NCBI RefSeq assembly: GCF_001420005.1
Contig: NZ_LJAK01000006.1
Coordinates: 186,001-250,000, forward strand
Origin: Loktanella sp. 3ANDIMAR09
GTDB lineage: Bacteria; Pseudomonadota; Alphaproteobacteria; Rhodobacterales; Rhodobacteraceae
Direction: 5' to 3'
DNA: 64,000 nucleotides
The notes beneath the pieces are model-generated. The model worked only from the letters and a program-made list of their open reading frames with translations. It was not told where the DNA came from and searched no databases. Positions 20,790 to 39,179 of this stretch are shown one piece after another; position 1 is the stretch's first letter, and every line of letters starts with the position of its first letter. Both the position numbers and the translations under genes were made by a program.

Positions 20790-21535
20790 TCAGCCTGCTC
20801 GAAGTCTCTGGTGTCAGCAAAACATTCGACGGGTTCCGCGCGATCAACAACCTGTCGATCCAGATCAACGAACCCGAACTGCGTGCCATCATCGGCCCCA
20901 ATGGTGCGGGCAAGACGACGTTCATGGATATCGTCACCGGCAAGACGCGGCCCGACACCGGTCAGGTCCTTTGGGGTGAGCGTAACGAAAGCCTGACCGG
21001 CCTGTCAGAGGCCGAAATCGCCAATCGCGGTATCGGGCGCAAGTTCCAGAAACCGACGGTCTTTGAAAACCAGACCGTGCGCCAGAACCTCGCCATGGCG
21101 CTGAAAAATCCACGCGGCCCGCTGGCCGTCTTGTTTTTCAAGGAGCCCCGAACCGATGCCGACCGGATCAGTGACATCGCTGGCGAAATTGGGCTGGCCG
21201 ACCAATTGGCCCGGCCCGCCGGCGAATTGAGCCACGGGCAAAAACAATGGTTGGAGATCGGGATGCTGCTGGCGCAGGACCCGCGCCTGTTGCTGGTCGA
21301 TGAACCTGCCGCCGGCATGACCGCCGAGGAACGCGAAAAAACCACAGACATTCTGAAACGCGCGGCACGAACCCGTGCGGTCGTGGTCGTCGAACACGAC
21401 ATGGAATTCGTGCGCCGCCTGAATTGCAAGGTCACGGTGCTGCACGAGGGGCATGTGCTGGCCGAAGGGTCGCTGGATCACGTGACAGCCGATCCCACCG
21501 TGATTGATGTCTATCTGGGGCGCTCCGATGCTTGA
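20786..21535 (+). CDS. urtD: urea ABC transporter, ATP-binding protein UrtD
   Basis: 249 residues from the ATG at 20786, which overlaps the urtC stop by 4 bases. The Walker A is GPNGAGKTT, the signature region reads ELSHGQKQWLEIGMLLAQDP (a variant of LSGGQ), and the Walker B is LLLVDEPAAGM. The variant signature is normal for UrtD. It energises the UrtBC channel together with UrtE, which overlaps its 3' end by 8 bases. Confidence 0.95.
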   Translation: MISLLEVSGVSKTFDGFRAINNLSIQINEPELRAIIGPNGAGKTTFMDIVTGKTRPDTGQVLWGERNESLTGLSEAEIANRGIGRKFQKPTVFENQTVRQNLAMALKNPRGPLAVLFFKEPRTDADRISDIAGEIGLADQLARPAGELSHGQKQWLEIGMLLAQDPRLLLVDEPAAGMTAEEREKTTDILKRAARTRAVVVVEHDMEFVRRLNCKVTVLHEGHVLAEGSLDHVTADPTVIDVYLGRSDA

Positions 21536-22226
21536 TGTTGCCGACCTGTCGCTGAAATACGGGCAAAGCCAGATCCTGTATGATATCTCGCTGACGGCCC
21601 CCGCAGGTCAGGTCACGACCGTGATGGGCACCAATGGCGTGGGCAAGACCAGCCTGCTGCGCGCCCTGTCCGGGCGGCATCCCTACAGTGCGGGCACGAT
21701 CCGGCTGGACGGCGATTCGCTGGTGCATCCCAGTGCGGCACAGGCCGCACGCGCAGGTATCGCCTATGTCCCGCAAGGGCGCGAAGTGTTCTCGATGCTG
21801 AGTGTGGCGGAAAATCTGGAAACCGGGTTTGCCTGTCTGCCGCGCGGCGATCACCACGTGCCTGACTGGATCTATGACCTGTTTCCGGTCCTGCGCGACA
21901 TGCGGCACCGTCGCGGTGGTGATTTGTCGGGGGGACAGCAACAGCAATTGGCCATTGCGCGGGCGTTGATCACCAAACCCCGTGTCCTGCTGCTGGACGA
22001 ACCGACCGAAGGCATCCAGCCCAACGTCATCCAGCAGATCGGCCGGGCCATCGTGCAGTTGCGCGATCGTGGCGACCTGGCAATCATCCTTGTGGAACAA
22101 AACGTCGATTTCGCGTGGTCGGTCGCGGACAACTTTGTGATGATCAAACGCGGGGCTGTGTTCCGCAAGCTGTCAAAGTCGGACAGCACACGCGCGGATA
22201 TCGTCGACTCTCTGTCGCTGTCATAA
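21528..22226 (+). CDS. urtE: urea ABC transporter, ATP-binding protein UrtE
   Basis: 232 residues from the ATG at 21528, which lies inside the end of urtD (8-base overlap ATGCTTGA). The Walker A is GTNGVGKTS (Thr for the usual Pro/Ala, as in UrtE), the signature is LSGGQQQQLAIARAL, and the Walker B is VLLLDEPTEGIQP. It is the last gene of the urea operon. The stem-loop downstream lies between it and the convergent autotransporter gene. Confidence 0.95.
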   Translation: MLDVADLSLKYGQSQILYDISLTAPAGQVTTVMGTNGVGKTSLLRALSGRHPYSAGTIRLDGDSLVHPSAAQAARAGIAYVPQGREVFSMLSVAENLETGFACLPRGDHHVPDWIYDLFPVLRDMRHRRGGDLSGGQQQQLAIARALITKPRVLLLDEPTEGIQPNVIQQIGRAIVQLRDRGDLAIILVEQNVDFAWSVADNFVMIKRGAVFRKLSKSDSTRADIVDSLSLS

Positions 22227-22297: not shown

Positions 22298-25200
22298 TCA
22301 GAACCGGATCGTCAGACCGACACCGGCCCGCAGGGCATTGACGTCGTCACCCAGGCTGCCGCCAAGGTTCACAAAACCTTCGACGGCGTCCTCGATCTCG
22401 TAGGTCATGTTCATGTCAAGCGACAGCAGATCGTCGGCACCGGATTTCACCGCCGTGTCGAACGCGCCCTCGACGCCCGTGATCGTGCCGATCGCATTTG
22501 TGTCCTCGCCGGAAATCATGGTGTCGTAGACCATCGTGACGCTGGGGCGCAGGGTCGTGCCCAGCGCATCATAGACGGCCCCGTAGCGCAGACCGATACC
22601 GGCATAGACCGCGTCAGAGTCCAGCTCCGCGACGTTGAGGTTCTGCAAACCCGCACCGGTTTCGCTATAGCCGTCGACAGTCGCCTGATAGCCGCGCAGA
22701 CGCACCAGCGGTGCAAGACGCGCGCCGCTGGTCAGACCCATTTGCGGTGCCACATCATAAGAGGCCTCGACCAGCCCGGACACCGTTTTCACATCCGTTG
22801 TGGCCGTCGCGACTGCGGCACCAACGCGGCGCGACAGATCGAACTCAGACGCCGAATAGCCCAGCGCACCCGTCAGGCGCAGCGCACCCTGCGCATAGTT
22901 CCCCGACAAACCAAAGTGCAGATCATCGGAGTCGGCCGCACCCTCTGCGGTGTCCACATTCGTCTGGCTATACCCCAGCCCCAGGTTCACCTGATAGGAC
23001 GCGGCATCACCGAGGCTGTTGTAGAAACTGACACCCGCCGCGATACCGGTCGACTGCACGTCATAGCCGGACTGACCGGCCGCATCCTCGACATCGGATT
23101 TCTCTGCAAAGGTCGAAAAGAACGTGCTCATGTCGATATCGGTCAGACCTGACATACCCGCGGGTTCGGATTTCGTGCTGATGAATTCCGACGTGGCAAC
23201 GTTCCGGGTTGATACCGTGCCTTCAACAGCGCCGGAACCACCCGTCGGCAGATTTGCCATGGCATCCGAGAATTTCAGACCGGAAAATCCGGCCGATGCG
23301 CCAGAAGCCGGGCCATTGGTCTTGTCGGACGCGCCGGGGGCCGCAGGCGCGGGGCCGGCACCGCCGCCCGGCGCTGCCTCTGCGACCGTTGCCGTCAGAA
23401 CGACACTGCTGCCGTCGTAGACATCCTTGAAATCGACATCGACCAGATTGTCGGTCACGGTGCCAAAGGTGCCGTCGACGCCCTCGTCCGCGACAAGGAC
23501 CGTCCACGCCAGATCGTCGCCGTTGTAGTCGCCAGCCGCTGCCGTCACAGCCAGGCTCGCCGCGTTGCTGATGCGCGCGGCATCGCCCACATCGATCAGG
23601 TCGCTGGAGCCATCCGCACGCAGGTTCACCGCAAAGGTGCTGCCAGCCTCGAACGTCACATTACTGCTGGACGTAAGCGTACCGATCCCGGTGCCTGATC
23701 CGGGCGAGACGACCGTGCCACTGCGGGCGATCAGACTGCCAAAGCCGCCAGCGCCTGTCAGGCGTCCACCGATCAGGTCGATGGCCATTCTGTTAGCCAG
23801 CGTCTTGTCCAACTGCACGGTGCCTTCGCGAATGTTCAGGTTATCGACGAATATGTTGGTGCCGTTCAGTGTCGCCGTGCCGCTGCCAACCTTGTCGAAA
23901 ACATCAAACCCAAAGAACTGCTCCGACGTCCCTTCTTCGGGGCTGATCATCACCATGTCGGTCATGGCAAGCGGTTCCGCTACGACGGTCTGCTGGGTCA
24001 GAGCATCTTCGAAAATTGCACCAATCGCCCGTGGCGCGACCAGCGCACCCTCGTAGTCGCCACCGATCTTGCCGATGTCAAAGCTCAGATCGCCGTCACC
24101 ACCCAGGGCCAGGACATCGTCCGTGCGCGGACCCGAAACATAGACATTGCCCGTGATGTCATACCCGGACTGAAGTTCGACCCGGTTTGCCGGTAGCGTC
24201 AGGTCCGTCCGGTCGTCGATGATGGCGATGGCCGCGCCTGTCTCGATGTCACCGCCGACGACCCGCCCTGCCACGGTGATGTCGGATGCATTCTGAAGAG
24301 ACACGATGGCAGCAATGCCCTCGCTCGCGTCGACGGACCCGCTTTGTGTGACGCGGATGGTGTTGGTGCCGTAGGCGGTCGGCAATGCCGCACTTCTTTG
24401 TGGTGAATTGGAGTTGGCGAAACCAGAAATATTCTTGCCGACCAGAATGCCATATGGACCGGATGACGTGAGGGCATCGCGGGCATACCGGGCAACGATA
24501 TCCCCTGAAATGCTGATGTCATGTGAATCGCCATTGCTGCGAATGCCGGTCGCAGCCGTGATGTTGCTGCCTTCGACGACAGTGATCTTGACGGTTTCGG
24601 CACCGTAATTGCCCTGGCTCAATTTCTCGTCGGCCCTGTTCAGGATACCGTATTTCATGGTCGCCTCGGGTACCGCGATTTCGACGGCCTGGGGCGCGGT
24701 CGCTCTTGTCAGGACAGGCCCCTGGCTCTCGGCCCGGTGCGCGATCCCACCGGTTCCGACGGTGATATCGATAGAACCACCGGACGCAAATGTCTGGATA
24801 CCGTACTTGTCTGCGGCAATCTGACCTGAGCCGGTCTCGATGGCGATGCGGCCACTCCCGCTTGTTCCGATGCGGTACCCACGATTGTCGACAACAATGC
24901 CATTTGAACCGCCGATGACATTACCGCTGCCCGTCGTGATGCTGATGTCGCCCGTGCGCGTGATTGCAATCGGTTCAACCGCAGCCCTATTCGACGTCTC
25001 GGATTGAGGAATATTGACCTGGAACTGACGTGTCGCCACAATCCCGGCACCAGACGAGGTTTGGATATCGCCGTCACCTGTCACAATCCGGATATCGCCA
25101 GTAGACGCCTGGGCCCTGATCGGGTTGCCACCTGATCGTTCACCCTGGATCGCACCTTCCATATTGATATCGATCACCGGATCCGAACCCGGCGCTTGGG

Positions 25201-25534
25201 TGACTGCCGTCGCCAGAACCACGCCGTTCAGTAACGTCCCCGGCTTGACATCGATCTTGACCGTCGATCCTTGCAAATCGATGATAGTTCCGGGGCCCAT
25301 AAAATTGGCACTCGGTTCGACGATGACGTTTACATCTGCCTCTGATTTTTCAAGGACCAACGGCTCACCAATATTACCCGCGCATGTGTAGGTGCCCGTT
25401 GCGATATCGAAATCACAGCCCGCTACCTGCGCCTCGGCCTGTCGCCCGTAGGACACCAGCCCCATTGCCAGAACCGACACGGACAGCAGCAGCTGTCCTC
25501 GGGTTATTGCTGTTTGCGCCTTAAATTCTGACAT
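22298..25534 (-). CDS. autotransporter with beta-helix passenger
   Basis: 1078 residues from the ATG at 25534, chosen because AAAGGA lies 6 bases upstream. The signal region (RGQLLLSVSVLAMGLVSYG then QAEAQV) is followed by a Gly/Ser/Thr/Ile-rich passenger. Repeat units of the form ISITTGSGxI...GIxxxxxG recur over about residues 100-330, which suggests a parallel beta-helix. An autotransporter-associated strand (GTATLNGTNIFVDNLNIREGTVQL) comes near residue 600, then a Pro/Ala/Gly linker near 770 and a C-terminal beta-barrel of about 280 residues ending in Phe. The mature passenger would be exported to the surface. No protease or lipase motif is visible in it; adhesion is a guess. Confidence 0.85.
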   Translation of the reverse strand: MSEFKAQTAITRGQLLLSVSVLAMGLVSYGRQAEAQVAGCDFDIATGTYTCAGNIGEPLVLEKSEADVNVIVEPSANFMGPGTIIDLQGSTVKIDVKPGTLLNGVVLATAVTQAPGSDPVIDINMEGAIQGERSGGNPIRAQASTGDIRIVTGDGDIQTSSGAGIVATRQFQVNIPQSETSNRAAVEPIAITRTGDISITTGSGNVIGGSNGIVVDNRGYRIGTSGSGRIAIETGSGQIAADKYGIQTFASGGSIDITVGTGGIAHRAESQGPVLTRATAPQAVEIAVPEATMKYGILNRADEKLSQGNYGAETVKITVVEGSNITAATGIRSNGDSHDISISGDIVARYARDALTSSGPYGILVGKNISGFANSNSPQRSAALPTAYGTNTIRVTQSGSVDASEGIAAIVSLQNASDITVAGRVVGGDIETGAAIAIIDDRTDLTLPANRVELQSGYDITGNVYVSGPRTDDVLALGGDGDLSFDIGKIGGDYEGALVAPRAIGAIFEDALTQQTVVAEPLAMTDMVMISPEEGTSEQFFGFDVFDKVGSGTATLNGTNIFVDNLNIREGTVQLDKTLANRMAIDLIGGRLTGAGGFGSLIARSGTVVSPGSGTGIGTLTSSSNVTFEAGSTFAVNLRADGSSDLIDVGDAARISNAASLAVTAAAGDYNGDDLAWTVLVADEGVDGTFGTVTDNLVDVDFKDVYDGSSVVLTATVAEAAPGGGAGPAPAAPGASDKTNGPASGASAGFSGLKFSDAMANLPTGGSGAVEGTVSTRNVATSEFISTKSEPAGMSGLTDIDMSTFFSTFAEKSDVEDAAGQSGYDVQSTGIAAGVSFYNSLGDAASYQVNLGLGYSQTNVDTAEGAADSDDLHFGLSGNYAQGALRLTGALGYSASEFDLSRRVGAAVATATTDVKTVSGLVEASYDVAPQMGLTSGARLAPLVRLRGYQATVDGYSETGAGLQNLNVAELDSDAVYAGIGLRYGAVYDALGTTLRPSVTMVYDTMISGEDTNAIGTITGVEGAFDTAVKSGADDLLSLDMNMTYEIEDAVEGFVNLGGSLGDDVNALRAGVGLTIRF

Positions 25535-25807
25535 ATAAAATCCTTTTGAAAACATGTTTGAGAGCCACCGCCAGCTGAATTTTTCGATCTGCAGCGCGGC
25601 CGTCTCGCGATCAACACAACGTGACGCTAGCCGCCGGCTCGGACGAAATGTGATCTATCTGTCGGTTTACAGAGGGAATTTTTTTCGACGTTGCCCAACT
25701 GACACGTTCAGCACATCCTATGGCTGTGCCGGCGACGTGGTCCGTTAATCGGGTTACGAACGGCCAGACACGCGCTAGGCTGCAAGCGACAAGGATGGAA
25801 CCCATTT

Positions 25808-30378: not shown

Positions 30379-31578
30379 ATGAACCGCAGACCATTTCTGA
30401 AACTCGTCAGTGCGCTGACCATCGCAAGTGCGCTGGCCGCATCTGCCGCCACAGCCGAAACCATCCGCATCGGTGCCGTGGCCCCCAAAACCGGACCGCT
30501 GGCCGGTGGTGCAACCGTCACACAGTGGCCGTCGATCTATCTGTGGGTGGAACAGGTGAACGCCGCGGGCGGCCTGACCGTCGACGGCGAACAGATGATG
30601 ATCGAACTGATCGAATACGACGATCAGACCAACCCCGGCGAGACGATCAAGGCCGTGCAACGTCTGGCCACGCAGGACGACGCGCATTTCATCATCGCAC
30701 CCTATGGCACGGGTCTGAACCTTGCTGCCGCACCGCTGTTCGACCGCTACGGCTATCCGCAGATCGCGGTGTCTGCGATTACCGACCAGCAACCGGAATT
30801 GTCGGCGCAGTTCCCCAACATGTTCTTTACCCTTGGCACCACCACCGCGCTGGCCGCCGATGTGGTCAAGGTGCTGACCGACATGCGTGACGCAGGCCAG
30901 ATGGGCGACCGCGTCGCCATGGTCAACGTGGCCGACGCCTTTGGGATCGAACTGGCCACTGCCGCCAAGCCGCTGTTTGAAGAGGCCGGGTTTGAGCTGG
31001 TGTACGAGACATCCTATCCGCTGGGCACGCAGGACCTGTCCCCTGTCATCAAAGGCGCCGCAGCCGCTGCACCCGATGCCTTCGTCGCCTGGTCCTACCC
31101 GCCCGACACATTCGGCCTGACGGAACAGGCGATGATCGAAAACCTCGACGTCAAGGCATTCTATACCGCCGTTGCAACGCCGTTTCCCGGCTATGGCGCG
31201 CGTTTCGGGGCCGCGGCAGAGGGCGTTCTGGGGGCCGGTGGCGTGAACCCCGACAGCCCTGCATTCATGGAATACGCCGCAGCCCACGAGGCCGTCACCG
31301 GCGAAAAGCCGGACTATTGGGCCTCTGCCACGACCTATGCCTCGTTGGAAATCCTGGGTCAGGCCATCGAGGCCGTGGGCCTGGATCGCGCGGCCGTCAC
31401 CGCACATCTGCGCGAGAGCACCTATGAGACCATCCTTGGTCCCATCAGCTTTGACGAGAACAACTCCAACCCCGACTTCTGGACCGTCGGCCAGTGGCAG
31501 GGCGGCGTGTTCAAGGGCGTTGCATCGCGGGGCCGCGACGGCACCGTCCCCGTCATCCTGAAGGACGGCTGGGAATAA
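30379..31578 (+). CDS. ABC transporter substrate-binding protein (Liv/HAAT family)
   Basis: 399 residues. A signal peptide (MNRRPFLKLVSALTIASALAASAATA) precedes a type-I periplasmic binding fold starting ETIRIGAVAPKTGPLAGG. NPGETIKAVQRLATQDDAHFIIAPYG marks the ligand cleft. This family carries branched-chain amino acids, amides or aromatic acids. Next to two aromatic-type aldehyde dehydrogenases and a coniferyl-alcohol-dehydrogenase-like SDR, an aromatic monomer is the more likely ligand here (inference). AAATGGAGGATACGC precedes the ATG. A stem-loop separates it from the permease genes. Confidence 0.88.
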   Translation: MNRRPFLKLVSALTIASALAASAATAETIRIGAVAPKTGPLAGGATVTQWPSIYLWVEQVNAAGGLTVDGEQMMIELIEYDDQTNPGETIKAVQRLATQDDAHFIIAPYGTGLNLAAAPLFDRYGYPQIAVSAITDQQPELSAQFPNMFFTLGTTTALAADVVKVLTDMRDAGQMGDRVAMVNVADAFGIELATAAKPLFEEAGFELVYETSYPLGTQDLSPVIKGAAAAAPDAFVAWSYPPDTFGLTEQAMIENLDVKAFYTAVATPFPGYGARFGAAAEGVLGAGGVNPDSPAFMEYAAAHEAVTGEKPDYWASATTYASLEILGQAIEAVGLDRAAVTAHLRESTYETILGPISFDENNSNPDFWTVGQWQGGVFKGVASRGRDGTVPVILKDGWE

Positions 31579-31593
31579 TCCCGCACACCAAAA

Positions 31594-31615
31594 GGGGCGG
31601 CGTCCGCGCCGTCCC
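31594..31615 (+). terminator. stem-loop between binding-protein gene and livH-type gene
   Basis: GGGGCGGCG and CGCCGTCCC form a 9-bp stem (one G-U pair in RNA) with a TCCG loop, 15 bases after the binding-protein stop. There is no T-run, so it probably stabilises the upstream mRNA or lowers read-through to the permease genes. Confidence 0.5.
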
Positions 31616-31641
31616 GCACCGATCATCTGGGGAACACCACT

Positions 31642-32508
31642 TTGGACATTTTGATCACAGGTATTCTGCTGGGCGGCACCTATGCGCTGATCGCGATGGG
31701 CCTGAACCTGCAATACGGCGTTGCCCGGATCATGAATCTGGCCAACGGTGAAATCCTGGTTGCCGGGGGCTATTTCGCGTTCATCGCCTACACGGCGACG
31801 CAACTCAGCCCGATCCTGACGATCTTTCTGGTGGCCCCGTTGGCATTTGCGCTGAATTGGCTGATCTACCGCCTGATGCTGCAACCGCTGGTCAACCGCG
31901 CAAAGAATCGCGGTCAGCTGGAAACCGACAGCATCCTTGCGACCTTTGGCCTGTCGTTCATCGGCTTGGGTCTGATGCTCAGCTTTTTTGGCGGTGACTA
32001 TTTTTCCTACAGCTTCATGGCTGTCCCGGTCGAACTGCTGGGCAATACCTACGGGGCCAATCGCGTGCTGTCCTTTGTGATGGCGGTGCTGATCTGCGGC
32101 GCGCTGTATCTGTGGCTGAACCGGTCGCGTGCGGGTCTGTCGATCCGCGCGATTGCGACGGCCCCTGCCTCTGCACGGCTGGTCGGCATTGATGTCAAAC
32201 ACCTGTCGGCGCTGGCCTTTGCGCTGGGCGGCGCTGTGACGGCGGTGGGTGGGGCGCTGATTTCAACCTACCTCACGCTTGATGCATCGACCGGGGTCGT
32301 GTTCACCCTCAAGGCGCTGATCATCGTGATCATGGGCGGCGTGGGCGACGTGCGCGGCACCATCGTCGCGGCCCTGCTGCTGGGGATACTGGAAACGCTT
32401 GTCGCCAGCCTGCTGGACCCTGGCCTGACACTGGCCGCCGCCTACGTGATGTTCCTTGGCATCCTGTTGTTCCGCCCGCAGGGCCTGTTCGGAAAGAAAC
32501 CGACATGA
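31642..32508 (+). CDS. ABC transporter permease, LivH type
   Basis: 288 residues with about eight membrane helices. The start is TTG at 31642 with GGGGAA about 9 bases upstream, giving MDILITGILLGGTYALIAMG, the standard LivH N-terminus. VARIMNLANGEILVAGGY and the loop NRSRAGLSIRAIATAPASARLVGI are family hallmarks, as is IVIMGGVGDVRGTIVAALLLG. It forms the inner-membrane pore with the LivM-type partner, whose start overlaps its stop by 4 bases (ATGA). Confidence 0.92.
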   Translation: MDILITGILLGGTYALIAMGLNLQYGVARIMNLANGEILVAGGYFAFIAYTATQLSPILTIFLVAPLAFALNWLIYRLMLQPLVNRAKNRGQLETDSILATFGLSFIGLGLMLSFFGGDYFSYSFMAVPVELLGNTYGANRVLSFVMAVLICGALYLWLNRSRAGLSIRAIATAPASARLVGIDVKHLSALAFALGGAVTAVGGALISTYLTLDASTGVVFTLKALIIVIMGGVGDVRGTIVAALLLGILETLVASLLDPGLTLAAAYVMFLGILLFRPQGLFGKKPT

Positions 32509-33440
32509 GCCTGACCGCCACCGATATCCGCAATCTGTGTCTTGCAACCCTCGTTTTTGCCGTCTGTGCGCTGCTGCCGCTGGGCGATCAAGGCTACTGG
32601 CTGGGGCTGGGCGTCACCATCGCGATGTTCACGGCCCTCGCAACATCCTGGGCGCTGTTTTCAGGCCCGACCCATTACATCAGCCTCGCGACAGCCGCGT
32701 TTTTCGGGGTCGGCACCTATGTCACGGGCCTTGGCATCGACACGCTGCCGTTCTGGTCGCTTGTTGGCCTTGCAGGCGTCATCGGCGCGGTGCTTGCCGC
32801 CCTCGTGGGCCTTGCGACGCTGCGGCTGTCGGGCGTCTATTTCGTGATCTTCACCCTCGGGCTGGCCGAACTGGTGCGGCAGGTCATCACATGGGTGCAG
32901 AACAATTCAGGGCAAAAGGGCCTGTACGTGCTGACCGACCTCGACGAGGCGGGGATCTACTGGTGGCTGCTGGGCCTGTCGGCGGCGGTGTTTCTCGCGG
33001 GCTGGCTGATCGGGCGGTCGCGGCTGGGGTTCGCGCTGCGGATCATCGGCGATGATGAAACCGTCGCCGCCCATTCCGGAATCAACACCGCGCGCGCCAA
33101 GGTGCTGCTGTTCATGGTGCCCGGTGCCGTGGCCGCCATGACCGGTGCGATCCTGGCGCCGCGTTATGTCTATATCGAACCGTCGCTGGCATTCGCGCCG
33201 ATCCTGTCGTTTCAGGTGGTCATCATGGCGCTGCTGGGGGGTGCATCCCGCCTGTGGGGGCCGGTGCTGGGCGTCATTCCGTTCACATTCCTGCTCGAGG
33301 CCGTGTCGTCCAATTTCCCCAACCAGACCACGTTGGTCATCGGCGTGGCATTCCTGGTGATCGTCTATCTGCTGCCCGGCGGTTTCGTCGGCCTGATGGG
33401 GCGGATCAATCGCCACCTGAACACGCGGGAGGGCACATAG
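32505..33440 (+). CDS. ABC transporter permease, LivM type
   Basis: 311 residues, about nine membrane helices. TLRLSGVYFVIFTLGLAELVRQ and the coupling loop ALRIIGDDETVAAHSGINTARAK identify the LivM family. It ends LLPGGFVGLMGRINRHLNTREGT. It begins inside the LivH-type gene by 4 bases and ends one base before the livG-type start. Together these two permeases form the channel. Confidence 0.92.
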   Translation: MSLTATDIRNLCLATLVFAVCALLPLGDQGYWLGLGVTIAMFTALATSWALFSGPTHYISLATAAFFGVGTYVTGLGIDTLPFWSLVGLAGVIGAVLAALVGLATLRLSGVYFVIFTLGLAELVRQVITWVQNNSGQKGLYVLTDLDEAGIYWWLLGLSAAVFLAGWLIGRSRLGFALRIIGDDETVAAHSGINTARAKVLLFMVPGAVAAMTGAILAPRYVYIEPSLAFAPILSFQVVIMALLGGASRLWGPVLGVIPFTFLLEAVSSNFPNQTTLVIGVAFLVIVYLLPGGFVGLMGRINRHLNTREGT

Positions 33441-33441
33441 C

Positions 33442-34173
33442 ATGAGCACCCCCGTCCTGTCCCTGCGCGGCGTGACCAAACGCTTTGGCGGGCTGGTTGC
33501 CGTGAATGCGATGGATTTCGACGTGGCAGAGCGTGAGGTCTTGGGCCTGCTTGGCCCCAACGGGTCCGGCAAATCCACGACCCTGAACCTGATTTCGGGC
33601 GCGCTGCCGCTGACCTCTGGCCATGTATCGCTGTGGGGAAATCGCATCTCCGGCCTGCCCGCCCAGACCATCACCCGCAAGGGCGTCAGTCGCACGTTCC
33701 AGCTGGTGCGCCTGTTGCCATCCATGAACGTGCGCGAAAACGTGGTCGCGGGGGCTGTATTCGGCCATCGCAGACGGTGGGGACAGGACGCCTGGGACCA
33801 CGCCGACGCGCTGCTGGACAAGGTGGGCCTTGGCGGCAAGGGCGACATGGCACTGGGGCAGCTGACCTATATCGACACCAAGCGGGTGGAACTGGCGCGC
33901 ACGCTGGCCAGCGACCCCAAGGTGCTGTTGCTGGATGAATGGCTGGCGGGCCTGAACCCGACCGAACTGCAAATCGGGATCACGCTGATCAAATCGCTGC
34001 GCGACGAGGGCCGCACGATCATCCTGGTGGAACACGTCATGGATGCGATCCGGTCGCTGTGCGACCGCTGCGTGGTCATGGCATCGGGCACCAAGATCGC
34101 CGAAGGGACACCGACGCAGGTCTTGTCCGACAAGGAAGTCATTCGCGCCTATCTGGGGGACGACGATGCTTGA
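33442..34173 (+). CDS. ABC transporter ATP-binding protein, LivG type
   Basis: 243 residues. The Walker A is GPNGSGKST. The signature region is unusual, LGQLTYIDTKRVELARTLA, in place of LSGGQ. The Walker B is VLLLDEWLAGLNP, with Trp where most LivG proteins have Pro-Thr. The motif changes resemble those in other transporters of this group, so activity is not ruled out. Its end overlaps the livF-type start by 8 bases (ATGCTTGA). Confidence 0.9.
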   Translation: MSTPVLSLRGVTKRFGGLVAVNAMDFDVAEREVLGLLGPNGSGKSTTLNLISGALPLTSGHVSLWGNRISGLPAQTITRKGVSRTFQLVRLLPSMNVRENVVAGAVFGHRRRWGQDAWDHADALLDKVGLGGKGDMALGQLTYIDTKRVELARTLASDPKVLLLDEWLAGLNPTELQIGITLIKSLRDEGRTIILVEHVMDAIRSLCDRCVVMASGTKIAEGTPTQVLSDKEVIRAYLGDDDA

Positions 34174-35311
34174 GATGACAAACGTCACCGTGCGCTACGG
34201 CCAGCACCGGGCGCTGGAAAACGCGCATGTCACCGTGGGCAAGGGGGAAATCGTCGTCATCCTCGGGGCCAATGGCGCGGGTAAATCCACCCTGCTCAAG
34301 GCCGCAAGCGGGATCTGCGAAGGTGCCGTGACCGGCGACATTCGCCTGGATGGCACGGCGCTGAACGGGCTGAGCGCGAACCGGATCGTCGATGCGGGAC
34401 TTGCACTTGTGCCAGAGGGGCGCGGCGTGTTCCCCGACCTGACGGTGCGCGAAAACCTGACGCTGGGGGCCTATGCGCCACGCGCACGCGACGACGAGAA
34501 AATGACGCTGGACCGTGTGTACAGCCTGTTTCCGAAACTGGCAGAACGGGGCAGGCAGATCGTCGGCACCATGTCGGGTGGCGAACAGCAGATGGTCGCG
34601 ATTGGCCGCGCCATGATGTCGAACCCGACGATCCTGACGCTGGACGAACCATCGCTGGGCCTGTCGCCGCTGCTGTCCAAGGAGTTGTTCCAGAACCTCG
34701 CCCGCGTCCGCGAACTGGGCATCGGCGTGCTGATGGTTGAACAAAACGCCAAACAATCGCTGGCCATCGCGGATCGCGGGTATCTGATCGAAAACGCCCA
34801 TGTGGTGCATCAGGACAGCGCCGCCAACCTGATGAATGACCCGGCCGTTCAGGCGGCCTATCTGGGCGTCGGCAGCGGCGACGAAAGTGGTGCGCCACCC
34901 CCCCCGTCCGAGATGCCTCAGACGGTGGCCGAAACCTTTGCCCTGCGGCCACGCAGCCAGAAAACCATCTCGGCGGACAGCATCCTTGGCCGTTCCGTCG
35001 ATGATCTGGTCGCGGCGGCGGGACGTCAAAGCGTGGCTGCCACGATACAAAAGCGGCCTGACCAAAGGCAGGCGCAAACGGCAACGGTGCCGACGGATCG
35101 ACTGGCCGCAACGTTGGCCGACATCGAACGCAGCGCGAGGGCCGCCCGCAATCGTCCCAAACCGCAGCCACGGCCTGACCGCCATGCGCCGTCACCGTCC
35201 CCCGCCCCACCGACCGCGGCCAAACCACGCCCCGTGATCGAGGTTTACCGCGCCCCGCGCGTCGAAGTGTACCGCCGCCAGCCCGACGGCAGCGGATTTG
35301 AAAGGAAATAG
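34166..35311 (+). CDS. ABC transporter ATP-binding protein, LivF type with long C-terminal tail
   Basis: 381 residues from the ATG at 34166. Residues 1-234 are a complete LivF: Walker A GANGAGKST, signature TMSGGEQQMVAIGRAMM, Walker B ILTLDEPSLGLSP, and the usual end near AAYLG. Standard LivF proteins stop here. This one continues for about 147 residues, rich in Pro, Ala, Arg and Gln and probably disordered and basic. The tail contains ISADSILGRSVDDLVAAAGR and ends with a near-repeat, IEVYRAPR-VEVYRRQP, then GSGFERK. The frame stays open at normal composition and the stop lies one base before the next gene, so a frameshift is not needed to explain it. The tail could bind RNA, membrane or a partner; its role is unknown. 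Confidence 0.88.
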   Translation: MLEMTNVTVRYGQHRALENAHVTVGKGEIVVILGANGAGKSTLLKAASGICEGAVTGDIRLDGTALNGLSANRIVDAGLALVPEGRGVFPDLTVRENLTLGAYAPRARDDEKMTLDRVYSLFPKLAERGRQIVGTMSGGEQQMVAIGRAMMSNPTILTLDEPSLGLSPLLSKELFQNLARVRELGIGVLMVEQNAKQSLAIADRGYLIENAHVVHQDSAANLMNDPAVQAAYLGVGSGDESGAPPPPSEMPQTVAETFALRPRSQKTISADSILGRSVDDLVAAAGRQSVAATIQKRPDQRQAQTATVPTDRLAATLADIERSARAARNRPKPQPRPDRHAPSPSPAPPTAAKPRPVIEVYRAPRVEVYRRQPDGSGFERK

Positions 35312-35312
35312 G

Positions 35313-36779
35313 ATGCTCGATTCACAGACCCATAACAAAGGCATGTTCATCGGCGGCAACTGGGTGTCCTCGAACACCACGTTCGATGACATAAACCCGT
35401 CCACGGGCGATGTCTGGGCGCAGGTCCCCGACGGCGGCCGCGCCGAGGCACGCGATGCGATCAATGCAGCGCAGGCAGCCTTTCCAGCCTGGGCAGGGCT
35501 TCATTTTCAGGACCGCGCCCGCATCCTGCTGCGCGCCGCCGACGTCTGGGAGGCGCGCAAGGCCGATTTCGTTGCCGCCGCACAGGCCGAAGGCGGCGGC
35601 TGGTTCGGCAAGGGCATGTTCGAGGCGGGCTATGTCCCAGAGGTGTTCCGCGCCGCAGCCGCCATGTGTTACAACGCGGTGGGTGAAATGCTGCCGTCGC
35701 AACACGGCAAGGTGTCGATGGTCGAACGGGTCCCGATGGGCGTGATCAGCGTCATCAGCCCGTGGAACATGCCCGGCATCCTGACGGCGCGCGGGTTTGC
35801 CTTTCCGCTCGCAGCGGGCAACACCATCGTGCTGAAACCGTCAGAGGACACGCCCTATGCGGGCGGTCTGTTCTTTGCTGAAATCATGCAAGAGGCGGGC
35901 ATCCCCAAGGGCGTGTTCAACGTCGTGACCTGTTCGCGCGAACGCGTGGGGGAAATGGGCGACGAACTGGTGGAAAACCCGTTGGTCAAGGGCATCTCGT
36001 TCACCGGGTCCACACCCGTGGGTCGTCAGATCGCGGCCAAGGCGGGCGCGCACCTGAAAAAGGCCTGTGTCGAACTGGGTGGCAAGGACAGCCTGATCGT
36101 GCTGGAGGACGCCGACATGGACCGTGCGACCTCTGCCGCGAGTTTCGGCAGCTTCATGCATCAGGGCCAGATCTGCATGTCCGTCGAAAAGGTGCTGGTC
36201 CACGAAAGCATCTACGCCGATTTCCTGCGCCAGTTCGTCGCCCGCGCGGCCAAGCTGAAAACCGGGGACACGGCGGACAAGTCCAACGTGATCGGCCCCC
36301 TGATCAACGACCGTCAGGTCGAACGGGTGAAATTCCAGATCGAGGACGCGCTGGCCAAGGGGGCCAAGGCGGTTCTGGGCGGTCGCGTCTGGGACAGGTT
36401 CGTGGAACCCACGATTCTGACCAACGTGACCCCCGACATGGCGGTCTGGCAGGAAGAAACCTTTGGCCCCGTGGCGGTCGTCGTCCCGTTCAGCACGGAC
36501 GCAGAGGCCATCGCCCTGAACAACGACACCGAATACGGGCTGAGTTCGGGCATCATCACGGCCGACGAAAACCGCGCGCTGCATATGTCACGCAAGCTGG
36601 AAACCGGGATGTGCCATGTGAACTGTTCGTCGGTGAATGACGAACCGCACGTGCCGTTTGGCGGCAGCAAGGCATCAGGTGTGGGCAAACACGGGGGGAA
36701 ATGGTCGATGGAAACCTTTACCGAAACGCGCTGGATCACGCTTGATCGCGGCGGCCGTCCGTTCCCGCCGGTGTTCTGA
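35313..36779 (+). CDS. aldehyde dehydrogenase (benzaldehyde/vanillin dehydrogenase-like)
   Basis: 488 residues from the ATG at 35313, with AAAGGA 6 bases upstream; the start lies one base after the livF-type stop. The ALDH landmarks are ISPWNMPGILTARG, FTGSTPVGRQIA, CVELGGKDSLIVLEDADMD (catalytic Glu), HQGQICMSVEK (catalytic Cys) and HVPFGGSKASGVGKHGG. It shares the GQICMS active-site string with the ALDH at 28942, but the two differ widely elsewhere, so they are not a recent duplication. It probably oxidises the aldehyde produced by the following SDR. Confidence 0.87.
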   Translation: MLDSQTHNKGMFIGGNWVSSNTTFDDINPSTGDVWAQVPDGGRAEARDAINAAQAAFPAWAGLHFQDRARILLRAADVWEARKADFVAAAQAEGGGWFGKGMFEAGYVPEVFRAAAAMCYNAVGEMLPSQHGKVSMVERVPMGVISVISPWNMPGILTARGFAFPLAAGNTIVLKPSEDTPYAGGLFFAEIMQEAGIPKGVFNVVTCSRERVGEMGDELVENPLVKGISFTGSTPVGRQIAAKAGAHLKKACVELGGKDSLIVLEDADMDRATSAASFGSFMHQGQICMSVEKVLVHESIYADFLRQFVARAAKLKTGDTADKSNVIGPLINDRQVERVKFQIEDALAKGAKAVLGGRVWDRFVEPTILTNVTPDMAVWQEETFGPVAVVVPFSTDAEAIALNNDTEYGLSSGIITADENRALHMSRKLETGMCHVNCSSVNDEPHVPFGGSKASGVGKHGGKWSMETFTETRWITLDRGGRPFPPVF

Positions 36780-37585
36780 TGGGCTGGGAACGCGCACCCC
36801 TGCTGCGGGGCAAAACGATTGTCGTCACTGGATCGGCTTCCGGTATCGGGCTGGAAACCGCACGGGTCTGCACCGCGATGGGGGCCCGCGTGCTGGGGAT
36901 CGACGTGACCAAACGGTTCGACCATGTCGAGGAATTCTACCGGGCCGATCTGTCTGACGGGGCCACCATCGACGCGCTGATCGACGCCCTGCCGGACGGC
37001 ATCGACGGGCTGGCAAATATCGCGGGGCTGCCGCCCACCGCCCCGGCAGACAAGGTGCTGGCGGTCAACCTTTTTGGCCTGAAACACCTGACACAGGGTC
37101 TGATCGCGAAAATGAACGACGGGGCCAGTATCGTGAACCTCGCCTCGCTCGCGGGCTTCGGATGGGCTGACGCGATCCCCGCGATCCGCGTCAGCGAGGG
37201 CGTGCATGTCGACGATGCGGCGCGCTTTGCCCAGACGCATCAGATCACCAACGCAGGCGGGCGCAGCTACTTTTTCTCCAAGGAGGCGCTGATCGCCTGG
37301 ACGTTGCAGAACCGCTGGACCTGGCGCGAGCGCGGCATCCGCATGAACACGGTCAGCCCCGGCCCGGTCGATACCCCGATCCTGGGTGATTTTCTGGAAA
37401 CGCTGGGGGCCCGCGCCGAGGAAGACGCCCGCGTCATGGACCGCCCCGGCACGCCGGCCGACCTCGCGCCCATCATCGCATTTCTGCTGTCGGACATGAC
37501 CACCTGGATCCGCGGCACCAACATCCCCGCCGACGGCGGCATGTCATCAAACATCCTGTGCGACATGCACGGGCTGTCATCATAA
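36779..37585 (+). CDS. SDR, coniferyl-alcohol dehydrogenase-like
   Basis: 268 residues. The cofactor motif is TGSASGIG and an Asp follows at the end of the second strand (LGIDVTK), which suggests NAD. The active-site Tyr-x-x-x-Lys is in SYFFSKEALIAWTLQ. The stretch TWRERGIRMNTVSPGPVDTPIL and the acidic helix after it are typical of coniferyl-alcohol dehydrogenase (CalA) and 3-alpha-hydroxysteroid dehydrogenase-like SDRs. Its start overlaps the ALDH stop by one base. An alcohol-to-aldehyde-to-acid sequence with the ALDH before it is the natural reading. Confidence 0.78.
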   Translation: MGWERAPLLRGKTIVVTGSASGIGLETARVCTAMGARVLGIDVTKRFDHVEEFYRADLSDGATIDALIDALPDGIDGLANIAGLPPTAPADKVLAVNLFGLKHLTQGLIAKMNDGASIVNLASLAGFGWADAIPAIRVSEGVHVDDAARFAQTHQITNAGGRSYFFSKEALIAWTLQNRWTWRERGIRMNTVSPGPVDTPILGDFLETLGARAEEDARVMDRPGTPADLAPIIAFLLSDMTTWIRGTNIPADGGMSSNILCDMHGLSS

Positions 37586-37598
37586 GGGAGGCCACATC

Positions 37599-39179
37599 AT
37601 GTCTGCATTGGCTTGGATCATCATCATCCTCATCGTGGCGGCGATCATCATTGCGCTGGCCGCGTCATTCTACCAGCGCGCCACGAACGAGGTCGCATTG
37701 GTGCGCACTGGTCTGGGTGGCCGCCGCGTCGTGATCGACGGCGGCACATTGGCGATCCCCTATTTCCACGAAATCAACCGCGTCAACATGCAGACCCTGC
37801 GCATGGACGTGGCAAGATCCGGTGAATCGTCGTTGATCACCAAGGACCGCCTGCGTGTCGATGTCGGTGCCGAATTCTATGCCAGCGTGACGCCCAACGA
37901 CGATGCGGTCACCCGGGCGGCCCAAACACTTGGCAAACGGGTGTTCCAGCCAGACCAGCTCAAGGGTCTGATCGACGGCATGATGATCGACGCGTTGCGG
38001 TCGGTGGCCGCACAGATGACCATGGATGAGTTGCACGAAAACCGCGCCAGCTTCGTCAGACAGGTGCGCGAGGCACTGACCGACACGCTGGCGAACTATG
38101 GTTTGCAGCTGGACTCCGTGTCTCTGACCGCGCTCGACCAGACCCCGTTCGCCGCACTGGATGAAAACAACGCCTTCAACGCCGTGGGCATGCGCAAACT
38201 GGCCGAGGTCATCGCCAAGTCCAAGAAGGAACGCGCCGAGATCGAAGGTGACAGCCAGGTCAGCGTCGCCCGCGCCGCCATGGAATCCGAACGGCGCAAA
38301 CTGGAAATCAACCTTGACCAGCGCCGCGCCGAAATCGCGCAGGCGCAGGAAATCGAAACCCTGATCGCGGCGCAATTGTCCGAAATCGCGGCGCGCAAGG
38401 CCGACAGCGAACGCAGCGCAGCACAGGCCCGCATCCAGATGGAACAGGATATTGCCGCCGCCGATATCGCCAAGGAACAGGCCCTGCGCCAGGCGGAAAT
38501 CGCCCAGGCGCTGGCACTCGACATGGCCGAGCAGGACAGCCACATTTCGCGTGCCGCCAAATCCCAGGAAGAAAGCCGCGCCCAGACCGAGGCGGACACC
38601 GCGCGGATCGCAGCCGTGCAGGCGGCAGAGGCGCTCTTGACCGCCCGGCAGATGGCCGAGGCCGAACGCCGCAAGGCGCTGGCCCTGATTGCGGCGCAGG
38701 AACAGGCCGAGGCGACCGCCGCCCGCGCCCGGATCATGGCCGCAAGTGACAAGGCCACCGCCGCCGACAAGACCGCCGCCAAACGCGAAGAAGCCGAGGC
38801 GATCAAGGCTGTCAGACTGGCCGAGACAGAGGCGCATCTGGCCCAGATCAATGCTGAGAATGCCCGTTCAGAGGCGCAGGTCGCCATGGAACTGGAACTG
38901 GCACGATTGGGGGCCCTGCCAAAGATCCTGTCCGAAATGGTCAAACCCGCCGAAAAGATCACCGGCATCTCGATCAACCAGATGACGGGTCTTGATCGCA
39001 ACTCTGGCAGTGCAGCGACGTCGCCGATCAATCAGACGGTCGATGCGATCATGGACATGGCCGTGTCCCTGCCCGCGCTGCAAAAACTGGGGGAATCCAT
39101 CGGCGTCAACGTTGATACGACCCTGACAAGGCCGCAGTCGTCCACGGGCAAACGGTCGCCAGAGACTGGCACGACCTGA
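37599..39179 (+). CDS. flotillin-like SPFH/band 7 protein (YqiK type)
   Basis: 526 residues. There is one N-terminal membrane helix (LAWIIIILIVAAIIIALAASF), then an SPFH domain at about 40-200 (VALVRTGLGGRRVVIDGGTLAIPYFHEINRV), then a very long Ala/Glu/Gln/Arg coiled coil at about 200-440, and a C-terminal part with ITGISINQMTGLDRNSG, which resembles YqiK-type flotillins. It organises membrane microdomains in other bacteria. It follows the SDR by 13 bases with its own AAGGGAGG site, so it appears co-transcribed with the aromatic-type operon. No NfeD-type partner gene is adjacent. Confidence 0.88.
   Translation: MSALAWIIIILIVAAIIIALAASFYQRATNEVALVRTGLGGRRVVIDGGTLAIPYFHEINRVNMQTLRMDVARSGESSLITKDRLRVDVGAEFYASVTPNDDAVTRAAQTLGKRVFQPDQLKGLIDGMMIDALRSVAAQMTMDELHENRASFVRQVREALTDTLANYGLQLDSVSLTALDQTPFAALDENNAFNAVGMRKLAEVIAKSKKERAEIEGDSQVSVARAAMESERRKLEINLDQRRAEIAQAQEIETLIAAQLSEIAARKADSERSAAQARIQMEQDIAAADIAKEQALRQAEIAQALALDMAEQDSHISRAAKSQEESRAQTEADTARIAAVQAAEALLTARQMAEAERRKALALIAAQEQAEATAARARIMAASDKATAADKTAAKREEAEAIKAVRLAETEAHLAQINAENARSEAQVAMELELARLGALPKILSEMVKPAEKITGISINQMTGLDRNSGSAATSPINQTVDAIMDMAVSLPALQKLGESIGVNVDTTLTRPQSSTGKRSPETGTT

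Follow-up and report, generated by a model that had tools for sequence, protein, structure and literature searches.

The window, a 64,000-nucleotide stretch of the genome of Loktanella sp. 3ANDIMAR09, carries on its plus strand an operon in which importer genes recognized by Pfam (SBP and LivG) and synteny (SBP, 30379-31578; LivH, 31642-32508; LivM, 32505-33440; LivG, 33442-34173; together 30379-34173) are followed by those for a LivF-type ABC ATPase (34166-35311, an open reading frame of 381 aa), the aldehyde dehydrogenase ALDH2 (35313-36779; Pfam Aldedh, 533 bits), a coniferyl-alcohol-dehydrogenase-like SDR (36779-37585) and a flotillin (37599-39179). The SDR scored 288.9 bits against the NCBIfam model of the coniferyl-alcohol dehydrogenase subfamily (NF009092, cut-off 242), to which it would thus belong on its sequence. 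The flotillin, with an SPFH domain ahead of a flotillin C-terminal domain, exceeded the Pfam thresholds of both Band_7 (PF01145; 78.8 versus 23.6 bits) and Flot (PF15975; 95 versus 27) and fell short of the FloT equivalog (NF058507; 62.2 versus 700).

LivF is composed of two parts. As the first-pass annotation had it, residues 1-234 (34166-34867) form a complete ABC core, from which the same frame runs on for another 147 residues: the core lies above the gathering threshold of ABC_tran (PF00005; 96.5 versus 25 bits), contains Walker A (GANGAGKST), signature (MSGGEQQ) and Walker B (LTLDEP) motifs, and is modelled by AlphaFold with a pLDDT >90 across most of its length. LivF did not reach the LivF equivalog cut-off (PRK11614/NF008626; 237.1 versus 441 bits), and a substrate other than a branched-chain amino acid is therefore conceivable, yet this was its top-scoring NCBIfam model; the urea ATPase UrtE (TIGR03410; 184.4 versus 285.8) was likewise not reached. 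Downstream of the core, the C-terminal extension or tail (residues 235-381, 34868-35308) had no Pfam match, and the TAG stop that ends it (35309-35311) lies one base before the ATG of ALDH2 at 35313, as already noted from the sequence.

In an alignment of 46 sequences, the tail resolves into conserved islands separated by variable linkers rich in Pro, Ala and Arg. A Pro-rich linker (residues 235-267, 34868-34966; majority identity about 0.25-0.45) leads to island 1 (I1; residues 268-287, 34967-35026; ISADSILGRSVDDLVAAAGR; consensus SADxxLGxSVxDLVxxA), whose majority identity is 0.53-0.73 and which is predicted to be helical from residue 278. Island 2 (I2; residues 310-330, 35093-35155; TDRLAATLADIERSARAARNR; consensus DRLxxxLxDIExAAxxAR) is predicted to form an amphipathic helix over residues 310-328 (pLDDT about 75), and its pattern was found in 82 of 85 tails, the three misses being two near-misses of the pattern and one masked sequence. 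Island 3 (I3; residues 355-381, 35228-35308; RPVIEVYRAPRVEVYRRQPDGSGFERK; consensus PPVIEVYRxPRVEVYRRxPxGxFER) makes up the C-terminus and matches the ABC core in conservation: majority identity is 0.83-0.92 in its conserved part, compared with a mean of 0.81 for the core and 0.25-0.30 for the linkers. AlphaFold, run on the same alignment, placed the linkers at pLDDT <50 (including residues 236-264) and predicted one helix over 278-295, another over 310-328, and two weak strands (369-371 and 378-380). With a net charge of +8, the tail is basic; it combines fast-evolving, disordered linkers with conserved islands, as expected of a disordered scaffold.

The tail is a genuine part of LivF. Orthologues within the family and outside it carry the same in-frame extension, at a similar length, so that it is neither a frameshift nor a chance reading frame, and a dN/dS of 0.13-0.28 across the tail (0.00-0.10 in the last 27 residues, which are I3, and 0.04-0.06 in the ABC core) reflects purifying selection; together, these observations rule out a frameshift or read-through artefact. 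Much of what had been proposed from the sequence alone held up: both the tail segment singled out there (corresponding to I1) and the terminal near-repeat IEVYRAPR-VEVYRRQP are present, and the alignment of orthologues, in which the proteins might have ended near residue 235 or varied at random beyond it, instead retains the tail together with its EVYRxPR element. The description of the tail as low-complexity and likely disordered stands in part: the linkers are predicted to be disordered, but low complexity is untrue of the conserved islands.

To see where such tails occur, we scanned public genomes with a flotillin profile, which yielded 80 named loci, mainly from Rhodobacteraceae and Roseobacteraceae, along with some from Rhizobiaceae and from MAGs labelled Chromatiales and Rhodospirillales. 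The tail was present in every readable LivF of these loci, whose total length, broken or truncated copies aside, was about 330-451 aa, and altogether in all 85 distinct readable LivFs of flotillin operons. The gene order of tailed operons is SBP-LivH-LivM-LivG-LivF-ALDH2-(SDR)-flotillin, and in most cases ALDH1 lies upstream; ALDH2, as judged by synteny, and the flotillin occur in every one of them. The flotillins of these operons stand apart by their high scores (at least 844 bits within the family and at least 782 in other families, the next best match scoring 696), and no LivF of the tailed kind was found at the loci of the more distant flotillins and flotillin paralogues that we sampled. 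The closest LivFs outside flotillin operons are 233-243 aa long, tail-less and without a flotillin neighbour; they adjoin an SDR alone (L193-L195), an ALDH1-like gene (L084, L196, L197, L200 and L201) or neither (L083, L192, L198 and L199). Because tailed LivFs come with a flotillin and the nearest LivFs lacking a flotillin are tail-less, the tail goes with the flotillin and ALDH2 operon. A few loci are irregular: one contig (C19 of G592) holds an apparent second importer copy in which LivF (L191:9340-10116) is cut by the contig end at the start of an apparent tail, the G191 assembly breaks within the LivF tail, leaving its halves at the ends of two contigs (the ends of L079 and L080), and in L071 about 3.4 kb, probably an insertion, separate LivG from LivF (between 9893 and 13355), genes that overlap in other genomes.

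The SDR gene is the variable member of these operons, and I3 follows it: the motif was found in 50 of 50 distinct tailed operons with an SDR and in none of 35 without, such that its presence matches that of the SDR gene without a discordant case, though through few independent events. With ancestry disregarded, Fisher's test gives a p of 1e-24. On a tree built from seven other operon genes, most SDR-less operons fall into one large clade, and L132, L138 and L164 lie outside it, implying at least three (at most about four) independent changes, in each of which I3 changes with the SDR and in the same direction; because joint changes are so few, a paired sign test (p 0.25) cannot reach significance. 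A single simple deletion cannot have removed both, because the ALDH2 gene lies between them. I3 was absent from all three forward frames of SDR-less operons, and a search of 11 SDR-less genomes for an SDR orthologue elsewhere found none in 10, ruling out relocation for these, and only a 40% relative in the eleventh. No gene family was prominent as a replacement within 5 kb on either side of SDR-less operons. The terminal near-repeat is the key motif of the tail, and the suggestion of the first-pass annotation that the tail might be a tether to the flotillin or enzymes of its operon is supported by these sequence comparisons: tails are restricted to flotillin operons, and the EVYR element occurs exactly with the SDR gene.

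SDR-less tails retain I1, more loosely, and nearly all of them (e.g., L099, L113 and L164) bear a further motif near the start of the tail, I0 (GPSPSDIAAAAL), which is absent from every SDR-bearing tail; only L138 clearly has neither I0 nor I3, and the I0 match of L132 is weak. When the other proteins of the Loktanella genome were searched for the tail motifs, LivF alone was recovered, plus one weak match at an E of 0.1.

On the SDR, a candidate docking site for I3 is the segment at residues 44-58 (TKRFDHVEEFYRADL; 36908-36952), which is conserved in I3-bearing operons, where the SDRs share K-x-F-D-H-V-E-E-F-Y-R-A-D-L at residues 45-58. The three SDRs beside tail-less LivFs, all from one genus, are DRNDPTVDLAGFFRADL-like at these positions, and a stand-alone SDR from another genome (L214) reads QA-EAVDEFFLADL there. 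Within residues 26-60 lie 12 of the 18 positions that are conserved among SDRs of I3 operons and differ beside tail-less LivFs, a comparison in which the tail-less side represents one lineage. In the diverged operons L064, L182 and L183, the docking segment and I3 have both diverged. In Alkalilacustris brevis, the SDR (L141:9197-9904) has an intact frame and has lost the catalytic YxxxK but kept AFDHVEEFYRADL, and the LivF beside it keeps I3; judging by its sequence, this SDR is an apparent pseudoenzyme. The segment lies near the cofactor-binding edge, and its conservation could be catalytic instead. VEEFYRAD of the SDR also resembles VIEVYRAP of I3, a similarity too short to be given much weight. 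In one genus (L193-L195), an SDR with 64% identity adjoins a tail-less LivF, so the enzyme needs no tether in general.

Because LivF and the SDR are in the same frame, the window DNA can be read through from I3 into the SDR, and we modelled such a construct with AlphaFold, with stops rendered as Gly (i.e., I3, about 490 out-of-frame nonsense residues, and the SDR) and with an alignment of 40 sequences, 17 of which included both ends. The SDR was ordered, and the nonsense between remained unfolded (pLDDT about 25-43); I3 was predicted to form strands at 5-10, 13-19 and 26-31 with pLDDT values of 82, 78 and 71, versus about 55-68 in LivF alone. This single, uncontrolled model is suggestive of I3 folding on the SDR, although I3 could alternatively form a small sheet unaided. 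Comparison of the model with the PDB re-identified the SDR fold only.

We regard it as reasonably probable that the tail is a disordered scaffold tethering the SDR, through I3, and the ALDH and/or flotillin, through I1 and I2, to the importer. The 147-residue extension would form a disordered arm on the cytoplasmic face of the LivHMGF-type importer, its long variable Pro/Arg linkers presenting short recognition motifs to proteins of the same operon. Among these motifs, I3, with its two EVYR strands at the C-terminus, would bind the SDR, most plausibly near residues 44-58, and probably fold against it as a small beta element; the helical I1 and I2, common to SDR-bearing and SDR-less operons, would bind ALDH and/or the flotillin, partners that we name as a guess. 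Each importer, probably with one such LivF per complex, could thereby hold the oxidation of alcohol and aldehyde at the point where the substrate enters and place these steps inside a flotillin patch, limiting the release of reactive aldehyde. The tail and its islands, purifying selection, the restriction to flotillin operons and the match between I3 and the SDR are what the sequences show; physical binding, the pairing of islands with partners, the substrate and its channelling are inferred.

The joint loss of I3 and SDR would equally be expected if the two were linked by pathway and not by contact, that is, if I3 regulated the importer (its ATPase activity or assembly) for an SDR-requiring substrate and both were lost when the substrate changed, and the appearance of I0 in SDR-less tails looks as if a substrate or partner had indeed changed. 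We consider this unlikely: a long linker holds I3 at its end, distant from the ATPase core, I3 is ordered in the SDR-containing model and less so in that of LivF alone, and the catalytically dead SDR of L141 has been retained together with I3. Less likely still is that the main role of the tail is anchoring, to flotillin or to the membrane, with amphipathic I1 and I2 inserted into the membrane or a flotillin coiled coil and no enzyme being tethered. Such an anchor would be in keeping with the restriction of the tail to flotillin operons, its predicted I1 and I2 helices and its net charge of +8, but leaves the match between I3 and the SDR unexplained. That the tail is a neutral read-through product or a drifting low-complexity appendage is hardly credible, even though variation is free in its linkers, which are rich in Pro, Ala and Arg and belong to GC-rich genomes, given the dN/dS values (0.13-0.28 overall, 0.00-0.10 in I3), the three conserved islands, and an island order that is identical across families of Alphaproteobacteria and the MAGs labelled Chromatiales and Rhodospirillales.

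If the tail is a scaffold, as we favour, its motifs may be exchangeable, and we tentatively propose, with a little less than even confidence, that LivF motifs recruit both the downstream dehydrogenases and a dedicated flotillin, building a membrane-bound import-and-oxidise unit, in which I3 is dropped and I0 takes its place as enzyme genes leave the operon. The importer shares with LivF (PRK11614) ATPases of the HAAT family a complete ABC core, the order LivH-LivM-LivG-LivF and a Peripla_BP_6 binding protein, and differs from them in the 147 extra C-terminal residues and in an operon that adds ALDH, SDR and flotillin. In ABC ATPases of the MalK, CysA, MetN and OpuA type, folded C-terminal regulatory domains connect transport to proteins or signals; the addition to LivF is likewise C-terminal, but takes the form of a disordered arm bearing short motifs. 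Encapsulation peptides and other enzyme-docking tails recruit a protein to an assembly by means of a short motif, helix or strand, that terminates a Pro-rich linker, whereas here no shell genes were seen in the operon, and the tail belongs to a transporter subunit and apparently recruits enzymes. Scaffolding of a membrane complex by a flotillin has a precedent in Staphylococcus aureus, where FloA scaffolds the type VII secretion system (PMC5718613). Unlike FloA, the flotillin described here has its gene in the operon of a single importer, which itself bears the candidate recruiting motifs. A search of an open-access library on LivF tails, on flotillin together with LivF or with coniferyl, and on importer metabolons returned no description of such an arrangement, and the direct hand-over of cargo from bacterial importers to the first catabolic enzymes is, to our knowledge, largely untested. 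A transporter motif that follows one enzyme gene offers an evolutionarily readable case of importer-enzyme coupling and, if the proposal is correct, would provide both a concrete client for a bacterial flotillin and a portable tag with which enzymes could be placed at an importer.

Elsewhere in the window, about 12 kb upstream, lies a second LivF/UrtE-like ATPase (21504-22226) of normal length (about 240 aa) and without a tail, followed on the minus strand (22298-25555) by a 1085-aa open reading frame that is autotransporter-like, with a repetitive passenger and a barrel-like C-terminal end.
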